DNA from: Thermophilibacter provencensis | GTDB lineage: Bacteria > Actinomycetota > Coriobacteriia > Coriobacteriales > Atopobiaceae | Direction: 5' to 3' | DNA length: 64,000 nucleotides | Assembly: GCF_900128445.1 (NCBI RefSeq) | Contig: NZ_LT671417.1 | Coordinates: forward strand, 1,722,769 to 1,786,768 | Shown here: positions 26,968-42,090 of the stretch, piece by piece | How positions within the stretch are numbered: the stretch's first letter is position 1 | How the letters are laid out: each line of letters starts with the position of its first letter | Position numbers and translations under genes: made by a program | The notes under the pieces: model-generated | Database searches by the model: none | What the model was told of the DNA's origin: nothing | What the model saw: only the letters and a program-made list of their open reading frames with translations

Positions 26968-28932
26968 ATGCGCACGTATACGAACCTGAACGCGGGCTGG
27001 ACCTTCACCAAGCCGGGGGACGCCCCGATCACGGTGGACGTCCCGCACACCTGGAACAACCTTGACGGCCAGGACGGTGGCAACGACTACTGGCGCGGGA
27101 CCTGCGCCTACGAGCGCCGCTTCACGGTCCCGGCGTTCGACCCCAAGAGGCAGGTCGTCTACCTCGAGTTCGAGGGCGTCAACGCCACGGCGGACGTCGA
27201 GGTCAACGGCATCGCGTGCTGCCATCATGACGGCGGCTACTCCACCTTCCGCACCAACGTCACCGAGCTCGTGAAGCCCGGCGACAACGGCCTGCTCGTC
27301 CACGTTGACAACTCCAAGAACGACCGCGTCTACCCCCAGAAGGCCGACTTCACCTTCTACGGCGGCATCTACCGCGACGTCAAGCTCCTCGTGGCCGACG
27401 CCACGCACTTCTCGCTCGACTACCACGGCGGCCCCGGCATCGCCGTCACGCCCAAGATCTCCGACGGCGAGAAGGACGCGGACGTGCGCGTGCAGACTTG
27501 GGTTGACGGCCCTGACGCCGCCTCCGCCGAGGTCCGCGTGACCCTCGTCGACGCCTCCGGCGCCACGGTGGGGACCGCGACCGGCACCGACGTCACCGTG
27601 GCGCTGCCCGACGCGCATCGCTGGGACGGCCTCGACGACCCGTACCTCTACACCGCGAAGGCGCAGCTCGTGGTCGCCGGCTCCGTGGTCGACGAGGTCT
27701 CCTGCCGCTTCGGCGTGCGCAGCTTCTCCTACGACGCCAAGGGCGGCTTCTTCCTCAACGGCCGCAGCTACCCGCTGCGCGGCGTGTGCCGCCACCAGGA
27801 CCGCAAGGCCCTCGGCAACGCCCTCACGGAGAAGGAGCACCGCGAGGACATGGCCCTCGTCCGCGAGATCGGCGCCAACACGCTGCGCCTCGCGCACTAC
27901 CAGCAGGCCCAGTTCTTCTATGACCTCTGCGACGAGGCCGGCATCGTGGTGTGGGCGGAGATCCCCTACATCTCAGAGCACATGCCCAACGGCCGCGAGA
28001 ACACCATCTCGCAGATGACCGAGCTCATCACCCAGAGCTACAACCACCCCTCGATCGTGTGCTGGGGCGTCTCCAACGAGATCACCATCTCCACCAAGGA
28101 CAAGGCGGACATGCTTGACAACCACCGCGTCCTCGACGAGCTCTGCCACAAGCTCGACCCCACCCGCTTCACCACGCTTGCCTGCTACGCCATGTGCGGG
28201 CCCTTCAACAAGTCCGCCTTCGTGACCGACGTCGTGAGCTGGAACCTCTACCTCGGCTGGTACGTGCCGGGCCTCTTCCTGAACGACCTCTGGTTCGGCT
28301 TCTTCCACCTCGTGCACCCCAACCGCGTCATCGGCATGTCCGAGTACGGCTGCGAGGCCATGCCCAACCTCCACTCCTCGCGGCCGCGCCGCAACGACCA
28401 CACCGAGGAGTACCAGTGCGTCTATCACGAGTACATGCTCAAGTTCTTCGCCAAGCACCCGTACCTGTGGGCAACGCACGTCTGGAACATGTTCGACTTC
28501 GCCGCCGACGCGCGCGACCAGGGCGGCGAGCCCGGCATGAACCACAAGGGCCTTATCACCTTCGACCGAAAGACCAAGAAGGACTCCTTCTACATCTACA
28601 AGGCCTGGTGGAGCAGCGAGCCCTTCGTGCACCTGTGCGGCAAGCGCTACGTCGACCGCGCCGAGGAGGCCACGAGCGTCAAGGTCTACTCCAACCAGAA
28701 GGAGGTCACGCTCTTCGTCAACGGCTCCAAGCTGGAGACCCGTCGCGAGGACCCCAAGAACCCGCACGTCTTCACGTTCTTCCTCCCGCTCAAGAAGGGC
28801 GAGAACAGCATCGAGGTCACGTCCGGCCAGCTCTCCGACTCCGGCACTATCCGCCGCGTCGACACGCCCAACCCCGACTACGTGCTCCAGAAGAAGAGCA
28901 CCCAGAAGTCCAACTGGGCGGACAACGAGTAG
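26968..28932 (+). CDS. Glycoside hydrolase family 2 protein, probable beta-glucuronidase (beta-galactosidase not excluded)
   Basis: The enzyme should remove a terminal sugar from beta-glycosides in the cytoplasm; no signal peptide is present. The 654-residue GH2 protein has a sugar-binding jelly-roll domain (about 1-170), an immunoglobulin-like domain and the TIM barrel with LRGVCRHQDRKALG. The acid/base Glu lies in WGVSNEITIS (about 371) and the nucleophile in GMSEYGCEAMP (about 459). After this comes a small C-terminal beta domain. NHKG at about 525-528, before LITFDRKTKKD, gives the N-x-K arrangement used by glucuronidases to bind the carboxylate, but some other GH2 enzymes share it. The glucuronate pathway next door favours glucuronidase. 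Confidence 0.8.
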   Translation: MRTYTNLNAGWTFTKPGDAPITVDVPHTWNNLDGQDGGNDYWRGTCAYERRFTVPAFDPKRQVVYLEFEGVNATADVEVNGIACCHHDGGYSTFRTNVTELVKPGDNGLLVHVDNSKNDRVYPQKADFTFYGGIYRDVKLLVADATHFSLDYHGGPGIAVTPKISDGEKDADVRVQTWVDGPDAASAEVRVTLVDASGATVGTATGTDVTVALPDAHRWDGLDDPYLYTAKAQLVVAGSVVDEVSCRFGVRSFSYDAKGGFFLNGRSYPLRGVCRHQDRKALGNALTEKEHREDMALVREIGANTLRLAHYQQAQFFYDLCDEAGIVVWAEIPYISEHMPNGRENTISQMTELITQSYNHPSIVCWGVSNEITISTKDKADMLDNHRVLDELCHKLDPTRFTTLACYAMCGPFNKSAFVTDVVSWNLYLGWYVPGLFLNDLWFGFFHLVHPNRVIGMSEYGCEAMPNLHSSRPRRNDHTEEYQCVYHEYMLKFFAKHPYLWATHVWNMFDFAADARDQGGEPGMNHKGLITFDRKTKKDSFYIYKAWWSSEPFVHLCGKRYVDRAEEATSVKVYSNQKEVTLFVNGSKLETRREDPKNPHVFTFFLPLKKGENSIEVTSGQLSDSGTIRRVDTPNPDYVLQKKSTQKSNWADNE

Positions 28933-28989: not shown

Positions 28990-29034
28990 TCGTTCTTCTC
29001 GCCGTTCTTCTCGCCAGCCCTTCTCGCCTTGCCC

Positions 29035-29210
29035 CTCCGGGTACGTACACCTCCTCTCCGGGTACGTACACGCCGTGGGGGCCGTAGGCGCTGTCCCCCT
29101 GAAGAACCCGCAGGTAGAGGGTGTTCGAGAAGAACATCAAGTCGTGAACCTCGTACGTACCCGGAGGCGGGGTGTGCGTACCCGGAGGCGGGGTGTACGT
29201 ACCCGGAGGA
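29035..29210. repeat. GTACGTAC composite palindromic element, copy 1
   Basis: Two direct CTCCGGGTACGTACAC units (29035-29050, 29056-29071) are followed by a core. The core contains GAAGAACCCGCAGGTAGA (29101-29118) and CGAGAAGAACATCAAG (29126-29141). Three inverted units GTACGTACCCGGAG follow (29153-29166, 29172-29187 with one change, 29193-29208). The whole can fold as a long stem of nested repeats with a conserved core. Copies 2 and 3 are at 30453 and 34412. The remainder of the gap to 29481 shows no gene I can support. Confidence 0.85.
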
Positions 29211-29481
29211 GGGCCTGCTCGCCCGGGGGCGCGGCTCCTGCGAGAGGGTGCGCCGCGCCGCGCCGGAGGGAGGGCCTGCTCGCCCGGGGCGCGGCTGGGC
29301 GGAGAGGCATCTGGAGAAGCCGTGGCGCCGGATGTCGTCGGGCGAATCTCCCCAAATAAGAAACCGTTGCGCACCGTGGGCCATGAGCTGCGATGGCATG
29401 CATCTCGGAGGGGCCTTCTTGCAAGGGGCGTCAGCGTCGTGCGCGCTTGGTGCAAGGGGCCGGGAAGCGTCCCTCGCTAGC

Positions 29482-30444
29482 ATGGGCGCCATGATTACCG
29501 TATGTGACATATCGGCACTTGCGCGCTGGGGAGAGGTCGGCCTAGCGCAGCGGCTGGGGGAGCCATGCCCCGAGCCGCCGGACAAGGCATGGTCCCTCGC
29601 CTCGGCGGCTGCCCTCGAGAAAATCGACCTGCGCGGCGCACGCATCGAGGCAACGGAGGCACGTCCCCTCCACATCCTCGTGAGCGGGGAGGCCAGCAGG
29701 GTGAGGACGCCCGTGGTGCGCTGCCACATCTGGTCGACCGCGCTTCCCCCGGATGCGCTCTGCCAGCTCACCGACGAGGTCCTTCTTGCCTCGCCGGCCT
29801 TCTGCCTGCAGCAGATGGCCGCTCGCTCGAGCCTCGCGCGGGCGGTCGCGGTGGGTACCGAGATATGCGGGAGGTACGCGCGCTCCCCGCGGGCCAAGGA
29901 CGGCTTCCACCGCAGGCCGCCGCTCATGACGCCCGACGAGCTCGTCCGGCGCTTTGCAGACGCCCGCGGCTACGGGACGCGGCGGGCGCGCGAGGCCGTG
30001 GCATTTGTCGTGACCGACTCGCGCTCTCCCATGGAGACGGTCGTCGTCCTCCTGTTCACACTGCCCGTCGAGGTGGGCGGCTGCGGGCTGCCCGCGCCGC
30101 GGCTCAACGCCGTCGTGGAGATCACCGCCTCGCTGCAGCTTGCCCTTGGGAAGCCCTATCTCGTGGTCGACCTCTGCTGGGAGGAGCTCGGGATCATCCT
30201 CGAGTACGAGAGCTACCTCTTCCATCGCACCAGGCAGCAGATCGACTCCGACAGCGCGCGCAACGAGGGGCTCCGGGACCTCGGGTGGATGGTCCGCTCC
30301 GTGACGGAGGGGATGCTCGCGGACCCGCAGATGCGCCGTGAGCTCGTCGAGAGGGTTGCCGCCCGCGCCGGAATCCGCCTGCCGAGGGACGAGGGCTACT
30401 GGCTGCGCCAGGAGGCGCTCGTGCGGGAGCTGCTCACCCTCTAG
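29482..30444 (+). CDS. AbiEi/DUF559-like protein with PD-(D/E)XK-type C-terminus, function unknown
   Basis: I do not know the function. The product has about 320 residues from ATG 29482 (ATG 29491 also possible, no clear ribosome binding site). An N-terminal region has PLHILVSGEASRVRTP and VLLASPAFCLQQMA, like type IV antitoxin AbiEi-like proteins. The C-terminal region has SPMETVVVLLFTLP, YLVVDLCWEELGIILEYESYLFH and DSARNEGLRDLGWMVRSVT. The spaced Glu, Asp and Glu-x-Glu match the core of DUF559/Vsr-type nucleases, so a nuclease or DNA-binding role is plausible. It is bracketed by two same-orientation copies of the GTACGTAC element and stands apart from the sugar genes, so it looks like an inserted module. 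The open frame extends upstream through copy 1 of the repeat, which I reject as coding. Confidence 0.7.
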   Translation: MGAMITVCDISALARWGEVGLAQRLGEPCPEPPDKAWSLASAAALEKIDLRGARIEATEARPLHILVSGEASRVRTPVVRCHIWSTALPPDALCQLTDEVLLASPAFCLQQMAARSSLARAVAVGTEICGRYARSPRAKDGFHRRPPLMTPDELVRRFADARGYGTRRAREAVAFVVTDSRSPMETVVVLLFTLPVEVGGCGLPAPRLNAVVEITASLQLALGKPYLVVDLCWEELGIILEYESYLFHRTRQQIDSDSARNEGLRDLGWMVRSVTEGMLADPQMRRELVERVAARAGIRLPRDEGYWLRQEALVRELLTL

Positions 30445-30452
30445 CGTTTCCT

Positions 30453-30606
30453 CTCCGGGTACGTACACGCCCCTTCCGGGTACGTACACGCAACGGGGCT
30501 CACGAACCCCTCCCTCTGAAGAATCCGCAGGTAGAAGGCAGGGCGAGAAGAACATCAAGCCGTGAACATCGTACGTACCCGGAGAGGGGTGTACGTACCC
30601 GGAGGA
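30453..30606. repeat. GTACGTAC composite palindromic element, copy 2
   Basis: The element has units CTCCGGGTACGTACAC (30453-30468) and TTCCGGGTACGTACAC (30474-30489). Its core is GAAGAATCCGCAGGTAGA (30518-30535) plus CGAGAAGAACATCAAG (30544-30559). The inverted units are GTACGTACCCGGAG (30571-30584) and GTGTACGTACCCGGAG (30589-30604). It has the same orientation as copy 1 and begins 9 bases after the stop of the AbiEi/DUF559-like gene. Confidence 0.85.
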
Positions 30607-30627: not shown

Positions 30628-31197
30628 TTATTCGCGCTCTTTCATGAGGGGGACGCTCATGTCTGTCCCGCTCGCTCCGAGGGTGATGGCCCGCTCGGCG
30701 AGGGCGTCGGCGGGCTCGTCCATGCCGCGCGCCACCCAGAAGTGGAGAAGTGAGATTGCGCCGCCGAGCACAAAGGCGCTCCGTTCCTCCGTGATGTTCA
30801 GGCGGCTGCTGTGCTCGAAGGCGATGACGCGGCGCTGGAGTTCGGTGCGGAAGCAGGCGAAGAATGTGATGAGCCCCTCCGCGTCGCTGACGGCGAGAAG
30901 TACGTCGCGGTTCTTCTCCATGTGGCGGAAGACCTCCCGCACGAACTGCTCGAGCGTGAGGTCTCGCATGCCGCCTCCGCCTCCTGCCGCCCGCATGCCG
31001 TCCAGCATGAGTACGGCAAGGTGGTGCAGTATGTCGACGGTGCCCGAAAAGTAGTGGTAGAAGGTGGGGCGGGAGACCCCGGCGCGGCGCGTGACGTCTG
31101 AGACCGTTACCTCGTCCGCGTTCTTCTTGCAAAGGAGGTCGAGGTAGGCGAGGGTGATGTCACGCCTCGTCGCGTTGTCGTCCAGCGAGCACAGCAT
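30628..31197 (-). CDS. TetR/AcrR-family transcriptional regulator
   Basis: This is a 189-residue DNA-binding repressor-type protein. I start at the ATG at 31197, which follows GGAG by 7 bases; a start 21 bases upstream at 31218 is also open. The N-terminal helix-turn-helix is DEVTVSDVTRRAGVSRPTFYHYF (about 28-50), the hallmark of the family. The C-terminal ligand domain is divergent, with GAISLLHFWVARGM near its end. It is divergent from the first GH3 gene and probably acts on that promoter and its own. A TTTACA-CT-TGTAAA palindrome at 31283 is a candidate site. The ligand is unknown. Confidence 0.85.
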   Translation of the reverse strand: MLCSLDDNATRRDITLAYLDLLCKKNADEVTVSDVTRRAGVSRPTFYHYFSGTVDILHHLAVLMLDGMRAAGGGGGMRDLTLEQFVREVFRHMEKNRDVLLAVSDAEGLITFFACFRTELQRRVIAFEHSSRLNITEERSAFVLGGAISLLHFWVARGMDEPADALAERAITLGASGTDMSVPLMKERE

Positions 31198-31282
31198 TCT
31201 CGTCTCCGTCCTCCCCACGCTGACTCATGGGCCAATCATATCGCAGCAGGCCACTTGACTCTCGTAGATGACCGCTCGCGAC

Positions 31283-31296
31283 TTTACACTTGTAAA
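31283..31296. promoter_or_regulatory. Candidate TetR operator between tetR and GH3 gene
   Basis: A perfect 14-base palindrome, TTTACACTTGTAAA, lies in the divergent gap, 86 bases before the tetR start and 62 bases before the GH3 start. It is distinct from the TGATATATCA operator family. Confidence 0.45.
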
Positions 31297-31325
31297 CTCC
31301 TCACTGCTCCGCCATCCTTAAAGAC

Positions 31326-31341
31326 ATCTGATATGTCAGTT
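31326..31341. promoter_or_regulatory. Degenerate GntR-type operator upstream of first GH3 gene
   Basis: ATCTGATATGTCAGTT matches the consensus AACTGATATATCAGTT at 14 of 16 positions and lies 17 bases before the ATG, next to the ribosome binding site AAGGAG. Confidence 0.55.
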
Positions 31342-31358
31342 TGCGGGGAAGGAGAAGA

Positions 31359-34310
31359 ATGGAAGACAAGAAGCCCCATGGGCCAAAGAAGCCGAGAGTC
31401 GCACTTTGGGCAGCCGTGAGCGCGGTTCTGGTGGTGCTTACTGTCGCCGGCGCCGTGGGCACGTATGTGGCGTTTGGTTCGACGCAGGCGATAAACATCG
31501 CTCTGCAGATTGACACTTACAAGACAGAGAACGAGAACCCTGACGCGCAGTACTTCACAAGCGAGTTCGACAGCGTCGAGGAGGTCGAGGCCAACGGGCA
31601 GGCTGTGGCCGAGGAGGTCGCGGGCGAGGGCATCGTTCTTCTGCGCAACAACAACGACGCCCTTCCGCTCTCCGCAGGCGACGCCGTCTCCACGTTCAGC
31701 CACAGCTCCACCGCCATCGGGACGTGCGGCACGGGTTCTGCGGACATCGATACGAGCAAGGCCCCCACATTGTGCGCGGCGCTCGAGGAGGTCGGACTCT
31801 CGGTTAACCCCACGCTGTGGGACTTCTATGAGACCGGGGCGGGCTCCGAGTACCCTAGCCAGCCGAGCAAGGGCATGAACGGCCTCGAGGGAGGCCGCTC
31901 CGCCTATCATGTGAACGAGGTTCCGGCCGACGTCTACACCGATGACGTCCGCTCCTCGTTCGAGGCCTACGGCGACGTTGCGCTGGTCACGATCAAGCGC
32001 GTCTCCGGCGAGATGTTCGATATGCCCAACGACGGCTTCGTCGACGGCACGGATTCGCTGGACCTCACGCAGCAGGAGCGTGACATGTTCCAGATGATCG
32101 AGGACGCCGGCTTCGACAAGGTCGTCGTGCTCATCAACTCCACCAACGCCTTCGACTGCTCGTTCCTCGACGAGTATGACGTGGACGCGGCGCTCTGGAT
32201 CGGCTACACCGGAACCTGGGGCCTCAACGCGGTCGCCGACATCCTCGTGGGCAACGTGAACCCCTCGGGTGGCCTGGTGGACACCTATACCTACGACAAC
32301 TCCACCGCTCCCGCGATGGTCGACTTCTACACCAACCAGTGGGCCAACGTCGACCAGGAGGACCAGCAGACCTGGTACAACCTCCAGCTTGACGGCAACC
32401 AGTACTACACCGTCTACCAGGAGGGCATTTACGTCGGCTACCGCTACTACGAGACGCGCTACGAGGATGTTGTCCTGGGGACCGCGGGCGTGGGCGACTA
32501 CGACTACGCGAGCACGGTCGCGTATCCCTTCGGCCATGGCCTCAGCTATACCGACTTTGCCTGGAGCGACTACCAGATGACCTACGATCAGGCCACGGAC
32601 GCCTTTGACGTTTCCGTGACCGTGACCAACGCGGGCGACGCTGCCGGCAAGGACATCGTGCAGGTTTATTTCCAGAGCCCCTACACGGACTACGACCGCG
32701 AGCAGGGCATCGAGAAGGCCTCCGTGGAGCTGGCCGGCTTCGCCAAGACCAAGCTTCTCGAGCCCGGCGAGTCGCAGACCGTCAACGTGTCCGTGGACCG
32801 CTCGGAGCTTGCGGCCTACGACCGCAACGGCGCCGGCACCTACGTGCTCGACGCCGGGACGTACTACCTCGCTGCGGGCCAGGATGCCCATGCGGCGCTC
32901 AACAACATCCTCGCCTCCAAGGGGCGCACCGTGGCCGACGGCATGACCGCCGAGGGCGATGCCGCGTTCGTGGCCACCTACGAGAACCCCGCGCTCGATG
33001 CCGAGGCGTTCTCCGTCTCCGAGACCACCGGAGCCGCCATCGAGAACCAGTTTGACACCGCCGAGCTCTCCAACTACGGCACCGACGTGACGTATCTCTC
33101 CCGCTCCGACTGGACGGGGACCTGGCCGCGCGAGATGGAGGGCATCACCGCCACGGACCAGATGCTCAAGGAGATTAACCTCTACCAGACGCATGAGGTC
33201 TCCACTGATGGCGAGATGCCCGTGACCGGTGCCGACAACGGTCTTACGCTCGCCATGATGATCGGCAGGGACTACGATGACCCGCAGTGGGACGAGCTTC
33301 TCGACCAGCTGACCGTGAGCGAGATGGCTACCCTCATCGGCGAGGGCTATCACAACACCGCACTCATCGCCTCGGTCTCCAAGCCCGCCACCGTGGACGA
33401 CAATGGGCCCCAGGGCTTCACGCAGACGCTCACCGGCGTGGCGGTCTCCCGCACGGCCTATCCCGATGCCAACATCATGGCGGCCACCTACAACGTCGAG
33501 CTCATGGGGCGGCTTGGCGAGGCCCTTGGCGAGGACATGCTCTCCCTCGGCGCCTCCGGTCTCTACGGCCCCAACATGAACTGCCACCGCACCGCCTATT
33601 CCGGCCGTAATTTCGAGTATTACTCCGAGGACCCGTTCCTCTCCGGCACCATCGCCGCCGCTGAGGTCGCCGGCATCCAGTCCAAGGGCGCCTACGTCTA
33701 CATCAAGCACTTCGCGCTCAACGACGCCGAGACCAACTGCCGCTGCCTGTCCACCTTCGCCAACGAGCAGGCGATCCGCGAGGTCTACCTCGAGCCGTTC
33801 CGCAAGGCTATCGAGGACGGCGGAGCGCACAACGTAATGAACTCGTTCGCTCGGGTGGGCACTACGTGGACCGGCGCCCACGAGGGCCTCATGACCAACG
33901 TGCTGCGCGGCGAGTGGGGCATGGACGGCTTTGCCATCACCGACTTCTCGGGCAACTCCGCCTTCGCGGCCTATGGCATCAAGCTCCGCTCCTTTGACGT
34001 GGCGCATGGCGTGCTCGCCGGCACGGATATGTGGGACTCCTCCGCAACCCAGTGGACAGACGACCTCAACCAGCTCTACGCCGAGGACCCGAGCATCGTC
34101 TCCGCGATGCGCGAGTCGAGCCACCGCATCCTCTACACCGTCGCCAACTCGAGCGCCATGAACGGCATCGACGCCGACACGCGCATCGTCGAGGTCACCC
34201 CGTGGTGGCAGATCGCGCTTCCCGCCCTCGTCGTCGTGATTCTCGTCCTGGCCGTCCTCTCCATCGCGCGCCTGGTCAAGGGCGTCAAGATGAAGAAGGC
34301 CATGAAGTAG
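31359..34310 (+). CDS. Membrane-anchored glycoside hydrolase family 3 protein with permuted domain order
   Basis: This is a beta-glycosidase, probably beta-glucosidase-like, acting outside the membrane. The 983-residue product has an N-terminal membrane segment (about 18-42). The GH3 C-terminal alpha/beta sandwich domain comes first (EGIVLLRNNNDALPL near 90, WIGYTGTWGLNAVADIL, YPFGHGLSYTDF near 389). An Fn3-like domain follows (VTVTNAGDAAGKDIVQVY). The TIM barrel, normally first, comes last (NFEYYSEDPFLSG near 752, IKHFALNDAE, and the nucleophile Asp in GFAITDFSG near 861). A second membrane segment lies at about 948-972. This reversed order is known from ruminal GH3 enzymes. Start ATG 31359 follows AAGGAG. 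Confidence 0.88.
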   Translation: MEDKKPHGPKKPRVALWAAVSAVLVVLTVAGAVGTYVAFGSTQAINIALQIDTYKTENENPDAQYFTSEFDSVEEVEANGQAVAEEVAGEGIVLLRNNNDALPLSAGDAVSTFSHSSTAIGTCGTGSADIDTSKAPTLCAALEEVGLSVNPTLWDFYETGAGSEYPSQPSKGMNGLEGGRSAYHVNEVPADVYTDDVRSSFEAYGDVALVTIKRVSGEMFDMPNDGFVDGTDSLDLTQQERDMFQMIEDAGFDKVVVLINSTNAFDCSFLDEYDVDAALWIGYTGTWGLNAVADILVGNVNPSGGLVDTYTYDNSTAPAMVDFYTNQWANVDQEDQQTWYNLQLDGNQYYTVYQEGIYVGYRYYETRYEDVVLGTAGVGDYDYASTVAYPFGHGLSYTDFAWSDYQMTYDQATDAFDVSVTVTNAGDAAGKDIVQVYFQSPYTDYDREQGIEKASVELAGFAKTKLLEPGESQTVNVSVDRSELAAYDRNGAGTYVLDAGTYYLAAGQDAHAALNNILASKGRTVADGMTAEGDAAFVATYENPALDAEAFSVSETTGAAIENQFDTAELSNYGTDVTYLSRSDWTGTWPREMEGITATDQMLKEINLYQTHEVSTDGEMPVTGADNGLTLAMMIGRDYDDPQWDELLDQLTVSEMATLIGEGYHNTALIASVSKPATVDDNGPQGFTQTLTGVAVSRTAYPDANIMAATYNVELMGRLGEALGEDMLSLGASGLYGPNMNCHRTAYSGRNFEYYSEDPFLSGTIAAAEVAGIQSKGAYVYIKHFALNDAETNCRCLSTFANEQAIREVYLEPFRKAIEDGGAHNVMNSFARVGTTWTGAHEGLMTNVLRGEWGMDGFAITDFSGNSAFAAYGIKLRSFDVAHGVLAGTDMWDSSATQWTDDLNQLYAEDPSIVSAMRESSHRILYTVANSSAMNGIDADTRIVEVTPWWQIALPALVVVILVLAVLSIARLVKGVKMKKAMK

Positions 34311-40684: not shown

Positions 40685-40752
40685 CCGAGTGACTCGTTTC
40701 GGACTGATGAGGCTCCTCTGGAGCATTCGTCCGGCCAAAACCCGTCACTCGG
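40685..40752. repeat. GAGTGAC hairpin element, copy 1
   Basis: The left arm CCGAGTGACTCGTTTCGG (40685-40702) and right arm CCGGCCAAAACCCGTCACTCGG (40731-40752) pair over CCGAGTGAC and further partial matches. TGAGGC is in the loop. It lies just beyond the 3' end of the AbiEi-like gene. Copy 2 at 42023 has the same orientation; a degenerate copy is at 46674. Confidence 0.8.
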
Positions 40753-40779: not shown

Positions 40780-41829
40780 TCATGCTAGCCCGTACGCCTC
40801 CACCGGAACGAGGTCGTGGGTGGGGCCGTCCGGAATGGTGACGAGGGGCTCGTGGTCGCGTGGCACGCCGAACGTCTCAAGCAGGCGGTTGAACTCGTAC
40901 AGGTCTCCGACCTCCTCTGGGGAGAAACGGATGATTTTCGGGCGGTCGATGGTGATGCGGGACTCTCGCCGGCGCTCGCGTCGCAGTGCCATGAGTGGGC
41001 TCCTGCCGTTCATCTCCGGGTTCCACACCTTCTCGCCCCCGTCGAGCTCCCCGATGATGACGGTCCCGTCGGGGAGTACCCACATGAAATCGACGCGAAG
41101 AACGCGCCTCGGGCTCAGGGGGTCGTGCACGGGGACCTGAAGGTCGGGCATCTGGTACCCCAGCTGGTACATGGTCGCGCGGGCGATGGACTCCATGCCG
41201 TTCTCGGGTCGCGGGTCGGCGAACGACGCCGTCATCTTCGCCTGCTTGAAGCCACGGTATCGCGGCCCCATTGAGCTGACGTACGCGACGAGCGCGTCCC
41301 CGCTTAGCCCGCCCTTGCGAAGGGCGGAGTCGGCGATCGCGAGTCCCTCGGGAAAGCTATGCCGTCGCATGCAGTCGAAGACCGTTCGCTCCAGCGTGGT
41401 TGCGGACACGCCGGACACCGTGACGGAGACCTCGTTGCGCGCATGAGCCGCTGCGATCCTGCCCCCGTGATAGCGGCGCGCGCCGCTCGACGTGACAACC
41501 TGCAGCGGCTCATGGAGGCGGTTTGACACGCTGAGGCCGTGCGCGACAGCGGCCGAGGTGCCACAGAAGACCCAGTCCGGATGAAGCTCGCCGAGGGCGC
41601 GCATCATGAAGAGCGTCCGCTCGGTTTGGCCGAGCGTGCGCCAAGCCTCTGCCCGCGCATACAGCCGGGGGAGTGGGGAGACAAGCTCGCCCGACTCCAC
41701 GCGGCGCTCAAGCGCGCGATGGAGCCTCCCCGGATACGACTCGAGGCACGCGCCCCGCCGCTCCGCCTCCCGCATGAAGACGTCGATCTCATGGTCCACG
41801 CTTTGCCACACGACCCCTCCCCTCAGCAT
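40780..41829 (-). CDS. AbiEi-like (type IV antitoxin-like) protein with PD-(D/E)XK-type C-terminus, function unknown
   Basis: I do not know the function. From the ATG at 41829 the product has 349 residues. That start lacks a ribosome binding site; GTG at 41811 or 41799, near GGGGAGGGG, may be the true start. An N-terminal winged-helix-like part (ESGELVSPLPRLYARAE) resembles AbiEi DNA-binding domains. Then come FCGTSAAVAHGLSV, PLQVVTSSGARR and TTLERTVFDCMRR. The C-terminal part has NGMESIARATMYQLGY and RVLRVDFMWVLPDGTVIIGE followed by LDGGEK, giving Glu, Asp, Glu-x-Asp and Lys as in PD-(D/E)XK nucleases. No AbiEii-type toxin lies beside it. It is bracketed by two copies of the GAGTGAC hairpin. 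Confidence 0.72.
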   Translation of the reverse strand: MLRGGVVWQSVDHEIDVFMREAERRGACLESYPGRLHRALERRVESGELVSPLPRLYARAEAWRTLGQTERTLFMMRALGELHPDWVFCGTSAAVAHGLSVSNRLHEPLQVVTSSGARRYHGGRIAAAHARNEVSVTVSGVSATTLERTVFDCMRRHSFPEGLAIADSALRKGGLSGDALVAYVSSMGPRYRGFKQAKMTASFADPRPENGMESIARATMYQLGYQMPDLQVPVHDPLSPRRVLRVDFMWVLPDGTVIIGELDGGEKVWNPEMNGRSPLMALRRERRRESRITIDRPKIIRFSPEEVGDLYEFNRLLETFGVPRDHEPLVTIPDGPTHDLVPVEAYGLA

Positions 41830-42022
41830 TTGAGGCGATGATAGGGGAGCGTCGGCCCTAGCTGTCTTCCCGGCCTCTGCCGCGCCGCTGACGCCGCAGG
41901 TAGGAGGAGGTGCGGGTGCTGGGGCGACTTCGTGGGCGGCGCGCCCGGGGCGGCGGGCGGCGCTGCGCGCCAAAGGGCCGCCCGCGACGTATCGTTATCC
42001 TCGCTTTCGGACTCGCCGTCGC

Positions 42023-42090
42023 GTGAGTGACGGATTTCGGCCGTTTGAGGCATCCGAAGGGGTCCCGTCCGTCCAAAACCCGTCACTCGG
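42023..42090. repeat. GAGTGAC hairpin element, copy 2
   Basis: GTGAGTGACGGATTTCGG (42023-42040) faces CCGTCCGTCCAAAACCCGTCACTCGG (42065-42090; first 20 bases CCGTCCGTCCAAAACCCGTC). The loop has TTGAGGC as in copy 1. It lies upstream of the AbiEi-like gene. The rest of 41830-42140 is GC-rich with no gene I can support. Confidence 0.8.

Follow-up and report, generated by a model that had tools for sequence, protein, structure and literature searches.

A gene lying between two copies of the same repeat raises the question of whether gene and repeat form one system, and what the encoded protein would do to the repeat. The question is posed here by P0001, a nuclease-like gene of Thermophilibacter provencensis, found in the window (the whole stretch of 64,000 nucleotides that was analysed). 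Two composite elements in the same orientation (29034-29209 and 30452-30605) frame the gene, and direct units, a core and inverted units are present in both copies, as had been noticed from the sequence alone. The features are as follows.

29034..29209, + strand: element 1, with two direct CCGGGTACGTAC units, a core (CTGAAGAACCCGCAGGTAGA..CGAGAAGAACATCAAG) and three inverted units, one reading GTGCGTAC
29491..30444, + strand: P0001, 317 aa, with an AbiEi-like middle part (by profile relation to the P0002 family) and a C-terminal Vsr/I-Bth0305I-like (MTES_1575/DUF559) nuclease domain
30452..30605, + strand: element 2, oriented as element 1 and starting 7 nt past the P0001 stop codon
34412..34567, - strand: element 3, core reversed
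40686..40752, no strand assigned: downstream copy of the P0002-type element, GAGTGAC..CCAAAACCCGTCACTCG
40783..41829, - strand: P0002, 349 aa, AbiEi-like, nuclease-like, with conserved D247, E261, D263 and K267 and its own repeat on both sides
42022..42090, no strand assigned: upstream copy of the P0002-type element, sharing a repeat with 40686..40752

The Elements in the Window

The general architecture of the elements is direct CCGGGTACGTACAC units, a core (CTGAAGAAYCCGCAGGTAGA...CGAGAAGAACATCAAG) and inverted GTACGTACCCGG units. Elements 1 and 2 are 80% identical over 164 columns, and element 2 folds as single-strand DNA with a z of -6.3. Shuffling predicts 0.19 copies of GTACGTAC in the window, and 11 are present. 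No Rfam family matched at the gathering score between positions 28000 and 43000. The tags of REP ends, GTAG or CGTC, were not apparent by eye at the ends of CCGGGTACGTAC, GAGGGTATGTAC and other units.

P0001 has a GH2 enzyme gene on one side and a TetR regulator gene on the other. In this genome (G000), the interval separating elements 2 and 3 contains a TetR gene and a GH3 gene (30628-34310 of the window); this TetR gene is absent from the homologous stretches read in G014 (L078) and G029 (L233). Judged by eye from its right flank, element 3 corresponds to the downstream element of the G014 cassette. Relocation of the neighbouring GH3 gene was considered and rejected, the GH3 of G000 and the further-downstream GH3 of G014 being only 51% identical.

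A 9-mer, GGCGAGAAG, was observed separately. It has 331 copies on both strands of an 864-kb sample of G000, about 17-fold over-represented, and 34 copies in the window against 1.43 expected. NNC follows in 94-95% of the copies. Of the 234 copies in genes, 109 are on the same strand as the gene and 125 on the opposite strand, which is no marked preference; 97 copies are intergenic. We liken the 9-mer to DNA uptake sequences or Chi, and the repeat elements contain part of it within their core. Further palindromes, recognized by eye, share the GTACGTAC-family core with other ends (TTTGTAGTGTAC..CTACCAGCG); another set, also read by eye, has the core CCCAGTTGGCA in common and different ends. These families come from L173 (G000) and L181 (G015), both 3' of hisS, and from other intergenic sites of the G000 sample.

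P0001 Is a Nuclease-Like Protein

The start codon of P0001, first placed at 29482, is more likely at 29491, where a Met is conserved in the alignment A1 of 25 relatives. Domain searches found no transposase domain in P0001. The protein itself had no match in Pfam at the curated cut-off, nor in NCBIfam or PADLOC at E ≤ 1. Among the 25 A1 members at E ≤ 0.1, PF18741 (MTES_1575) matched 20 (best 9.5e-7) and DUF559 matched 10 (best 1.5e-5), and in the profile search none matched a Y1 family. The sequence-only reading of P0001 as a nuclease-fold protein other than a Y1 transposase is upheld. The acidic nuclease pattern that it described is real: no A1 member departs from E182, D227, E238, S241 or H245, which belong to a larger set of invariant positions; the D/E at position 240 varies.

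The AlphaFold2 model of P0001 has a pLDDT of 87.7 and a pTM of 0.87. Re-alignment with VIA-align placed model residues 179-294 onto the catalytic domain of I-Bth0305I (PDB 3r3p) with Z 9.5 and 2.8 Å over 94 residues. When PDB sequences were searched with the family profile, this same chain ranked first, though with an E-value of only 0.02. The C-terminal domain, taken from the predicted model and not from a solved structure, was aligned with Vsr at Z 7.5; this value alone would not carry the nuclease assignment because models that lack a clear match often reach a Z of 7-8 by chance arrangement. Foldseek gave the P0001 modelled domain an E-value of 0.15 and a probability of 0.96 for the Vsr-like catalytic fold, and found no PDB match for the model at E ≤ 0.001. 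Three lines of evidence therefore carry the assignment together, namely the re-alignment by VIA, the invariance of the residues named above and the matches of the profiles; by these, the C-terminal domain of P0001 is predicted to have a Vsr-like catalytic fold.

The chain of I-Bth0305I is one that we take to belong to the EDxHD group of homing endonucleases. P0001 resembles EDxHD/Vsr homing endonucleases in its predicted catalytic fold, with the weak profile match noted above. It differs in its extra AbiEi-like part, in its multi-paralogue family and in the dispersed non-coding copies of its element. The name EDxHD is used for this group in PMC12350094.

The families of P0001 and P0002 are related to each other in the hhalign comparison (probability 95, E 2e-8, 213 columns). 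MTES_1575/DUF559 and AbiEi-type proteins are the nearest known types, A1 members matching PF18741 and DUF559, and P0002 matching AbiEi models of PADLOC (best 3.3e-5). Two assignments were rejected. One is an AbiE type IV toxin-antitoxin system, as no AbiEii nucleotidyltransferase gene accompanies P0001, which is flanked by the GH2 and TetR genes. The other is a phage origin, relatives of A1 not being found in viral contigs.

Bracketing by an Own Repeat Recurs across the Family

Relatives of P0001 are present in all 31 genomes of the genus (Atopobiaceae), which belong to gut bacteria, at 7-19 per genome (E ≤ 0.001); G000 has 13 such genes (15 entries, two being second pieces). In the whole class, 119 genomes from 68 genera were covered, and the family was found in 59 of these genomes and 27 of these genera (E ≤ 1e-10); 58 of the 59 genomes belong to the same order. 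Among 22 named orthologue loci, 20 are from Olsenella, Thermophilibacter and other Atopobiaceae, and the other two are distant partial matches.

For the family comparison, 60 regions were taken from among the matches listed for P0001. The upstream flank of each gene was compared with its downstream flank, and a gene was counted as bracketed when they shared a repeat at E ≤ 1e-6. Members with less than 400 bp of sequence upstream or less than 300 bp downstream were dropped, as were duplicates. With start codons corrected, 47 of 80 family members were bracketed, against 5 of 240 swapped flank pairs; at the looser E ≤ 0.01, the numbers were 59/80 and 50/240. In a second test, family genes and other genes were taken from the same gene caller with starts uncorrected; genes had to be at least 100 aa long and at least 400 bp away from either end of the locus. 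Here, a bracket was found for 34 of 70 genes of the family, against 11 of 424 others (E ≤ 1e-6; Fisher p 1e-23). By eye, nine of the 11 bracketed controls are P0001-type repeats inside loci retrieved for a P0001 orthologue, one is P0002, and one reflects similar coding sequence. The framing of a nuclease-fold, non-Y1 protein by its own repeat is thus a recurrent feature of the family and not a peculiarity of this locus.

The sequence-only reading had also reported a second, different repeat pair at 40.7-42.1 kb. This pair was recovered: the repeats at 40686-40752 and 42022-42090 bracket P0002, with E-values of 1.6e-7 and 2.2e-7 in two comparisons. The P0002 family was found in 29 of 31 genomes. 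Its members are bracketed in 21 of 30 cases, against 7 of 150 swapped flank pairs (E ≤ 1e-6), and in 22 of 30 at E ≤ 1e-4. Many of these brackets hold inverted repeats, which differ from gene to gene.

Bracketing is uneven among the paralogues. A bracket is present around all 21 intact P0001 orthologues (19 genomes), with E ≤ 1e-6 for 20 of them and 1.1e-4 for the remaining one, and this clade has a full element on each flank, downstream of the gene included. A broken orthologue in G005 (54% identical, with an internal stop) has no shared flank repeat. In contrast to the intact close orthologues, several paralogue subfamilies lack a bracket, so that homologues without flanking repeats, which had been named as evidence against the pairing, do occur at this wider range; at E ≤ 1e-6, 33 of the 80 members are unbracketed. 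The paralogue groups without a bracket are L066, L098, L112 and L135; L061, L065 and L116; L067, L117 and L124; and L121 and L126. They are possibly settled, domesticated members. Class-wide, 24 of 30 loci were used, the other six being P0001 orthologues of the genus; six of the 24 were bracketed and 18 were not at E ≤ 1e-4 (23 of the 24 are outside the genus).

Repeat Copies Follow the Gene Lineage

The units of the orthologues vary by lineage around a related core, and include CCGGGTACGTAC, GAGGGTATGTAC, AGGGTACGTAC, CGTTGTGTACAC, GGTTATGCGCA and others. Three genomes with CCGGGTACGTAC in the cassette (in G012, on one flank only) have 25, 35 and 14 copies of it, against 0-3 in 16 genomes whose orthologues bear other units. 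Likewise, four genomes having GAGGGTATGTAC as their own unit contain 59-103 copies, against 0-5 in 15 others with orthologues. For both units, repeat copies track the gene lineage: own-unit genomes are rich and other-unit genomes poor.

The related expectation that copy number falls where the gene is missing was borne out in part. Among 12 genomes without an intact orthologue, eight have 0-3 copies of CCGGGTACGTAC or GAGGGTATGTAC. The other four carry 12-22 units each, to which extent repeats do abound without the gene: G029 has 22 CCGGGTACGTAC, and G001, G008 and G018 have 22, 13 and 12 GAGGGTATGTAC. Gene loss would explain the units in these four genomes; G018 retains a fragment of the P0001 orthologue.

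The genome-wide search for copies in G000 (2.63 Mb) located 13 places marked by the unit, either exact or with one mismatch in the 13-mer. All 12 of the places examined lie between called genes, most of them far from any such nuclease gene. Bracketed paralogues show similar dispersal. In a sample of about 33% of G000, 6 of 10 bracketed genes had dispersed matches to their own element, at 3, 4, 3, 7, 2 and 1 places (the single place being a 28-nt match); the P0002 element had four dispersed matches in this sample. Reversed element queries gave no dispersed matches in the same sample. The count set aside four unbracketed genes (L065, L066, L067 and L074). The units of the bracketed paralogues mostly differ, and therefore several such systems appear to exist side by side in one genome.

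One alternative is that some transposase moves the palindromes, so that the nuclease genes only happen to lie between a pair of them. The persistence of elements in the four genomes without an intact orthologue is consistent with it. The scarcity of bracketed control genes given above, with nine of 11 cases being P0001-type repeats in P0001-orthologue loci, argues against it. None of the 17 scanned genes (22 called) around nine solo places of G000 matched a transposase family at E ≤ 1e-5; they encode ordinary enzymes, regulators or unnamed proteins. A crude motif scan for a Y1 driver over about one-third of G000, run without a positive control, was also empty. Passive hitchhiking is considered very improbable.

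The intergenic position of the elements, and the strong folding of one of them, could also be read in another way. AbiEi domains are transcriptional repressors that bind inverted repeats. The elements might then be operators or terminators of AbiEi-like genes, regulators or defence nucleases, and be spread by other agency or by selection, the protein itself not moving them; the PADLOC matches of P0002 point in the same direction. Operators would not account well for the full element downstream of the gene in the P0001 clade, or for intergenic copies that mostly lie far from any such gene. The occurrence of cassettes at different loci and of solo elements, described below, also speaks against this explanation, which is considered improbable.

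Cassettes, Solo Elements and Flanking Pairs

P0001 orthologues occupy at least five loci: between GH2 and GH3 genes, beside hisS, a third locus, between aroB and aroA, and others. The locus is constant within clades and differs between clades. At the third locus in G002 (L086), the orthologue is inverted relative to the conserved neighbours, together with its flanking elements, as if flipped in place.

Alleles with the cassette, with a solo element and with neither were sought following the sequence-only reading, and they exist. Between aroB and aroA, 30 loci were read (G001, without the aroA locus, was left out): six have the cassette, two a solo element, one another sequence, and in 21 no element was seen. 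At the hisS locus, four of 30 have the cassette, one a solo element and one another paralogue; the core-motif search found no such element in the other 24, some of which carry other palindromes. At the locus of the window itself, the close relative G029 carries a lone element in the place that element-gene-element occupies in G014; in G000 a TetR-GH3 block is present in addition, with elements 2 and 3 as its boundaries.

Five dispersed positions are common to G000, G014 and G029, which indicates that element turnover is slow. PMC8049555 likewise gives very low replication rates for REPINs. A clean insertion polymorphism with both boundaries was sought at two places and none was obtained; at the first, G000 keeps a remnant of an element of a different family, and the second matched on one side only. 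The GGGTTATGGCAG-family element is complete in L219 (G014), is also present in G029, and is a remnant in G000 (C3 2595510-2595533). The flanks of the paralogue L069 belong to the GGGTTATGGCAG family.

Flanking pairs were compared within and between species. In the aro clade, identity within pairs is 0.87-0.98 (all five pairs used), against 0.72-0.86 between species for the same flank (all 20 values). A sixth aro-clade pair, that of G023, stands outside this comparison and is only 74% identical over 84 nt. In the hisS-locus clade, identities within pairs (0.88-0.93) and between species (0.82-0.94) overlap, and for G007/G020 they are 0.89-0.90 within and 0.86 between. Pairs of G023, G016, G002, G025 and G000/G014, and the second copies of G004 and G015, were left out. 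The aro-clade pattern is what conversion would leave, and it is likely, judging from these identities, that the flanking pairs of this clade undergo conversion.

The likeness of flanking pairs in the aro clade would also be compatible with homing. The nuclease would cut solo elements at fixed intergenic sites, and repair from the cassette-bearing chromosome would spread the gene between strains site by site, solo dispersal being a by-product of ectopic repair. The closest fold match of P0001 is a homing endonuclease domain, that of I-Bth0305I, and junctions are common to solo and cassette alleles. In the tree, where three genomes with a short locus were represented without the second protein, each aroB-aroA solo is sister to a cassette-bearing species (branch supports not printed); because of this grouping, the solos look like losses and not like pre-insertion targets. 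A homing gene by definition interrupts its own site. EDxHD/Vsr homing endonucleases are associated with an intron, an intein or an interrupted site, whereas P0001 is a free-standing intergenic gene with both elements intact beside it. Homing of this type is regarded as unlikely, though less so than the two alternatives above.

A Putative REPIN-Like System with a Dedicated Endonuclease

The preferred interpretation is that the gene and its two elements constitute one cassette of a REPIN-like repeat system with a dedicated Vsr/EDxHD-like endonuclease, to which a probability of roughly 0.6 is given. A REPtron-like partnership fits because of the bracketing, the lineage-matched abundance, the different loci, the solos and the likely conversion taken together. 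In such a system, the N-terminal, AbiEi-like part of the protein would bind the terminal unit of about 12 bp, and the C-terminal domain would nick or cut at the elements. A hydrolytic Vsr-like nuclease would have to act via host recombination. Host recombination or repair could then copy the element into other intergenic sites, and may homogenise element copies by conversion. In some cases the complete cassette would be carried elsewhere, and in others deletion of the gene from between the elements would leave a solo.

REPtrons (REP/REPIN with RAYT/TnpA-REP) are the closest known systems. According to PMC8049555, PMC8266576 and PMC3733652, they share with the present case a gene framed by its own palindromic repeats, dispersed intergenic cognate copies, a higher abundance of repeats in genomes with the gene, and several gene-repeat pairs per genome. 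They differ in the enzyme, which is an HUH Y1 transposase in REPtrons and a Vsr/PD-(D/E)XK-like protein here. PMC8266576 states that evidence for tnpA-REP mobility is lacking, while here the orthologous gene and its repeats are found at different loci by lineage. TIRtrons and MITE-like repeats also have terminal inverted units and dispersed non-autonomous copies, as TIRtrons are described in PMC3733652; by the same source, TIRtrons encode tyrosine transposases, in which they differ from the present case. In the searches of open-access papers, nothing was found that links MTES_1575/DUF559 or AbiEi-type proteins to repeats, nor any description of a DUF559- or AbiEi-type gene framed by a repeat of its own.

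By organisation alone, the system would be a variant of the REPtron kind. It would be a categorically new kind because the enzyme lacks the defining feature of REPtrons and the chemistry would differ. It is tentatively proposed, at somewhat less than even odds, that there is a class of REPIN-like elements mobilised by a Vsr-like PD-(D/E)XK endonuclease and not by an HUH or DDE transposase. Many Coriobacteriales paralogues would each have a private co-evolving palindromic repeat, and nuclease-initiated recombination, not transposition chemistry, would amplify the repeats and move the gene.

Some bacterial palindromic repeats have no known mobiliser, and CGTC REPs are apparently without a dedicated transposase, according to PMC3733652. 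If a hydrolytic Vsr-like nuclease is the mobiliser, repeat amplification needs no transposase chemistry. The 7-19 relatives in each genome, many with their own unit, are natural swaps with which the co-evolution of nuclease and site can be tested.
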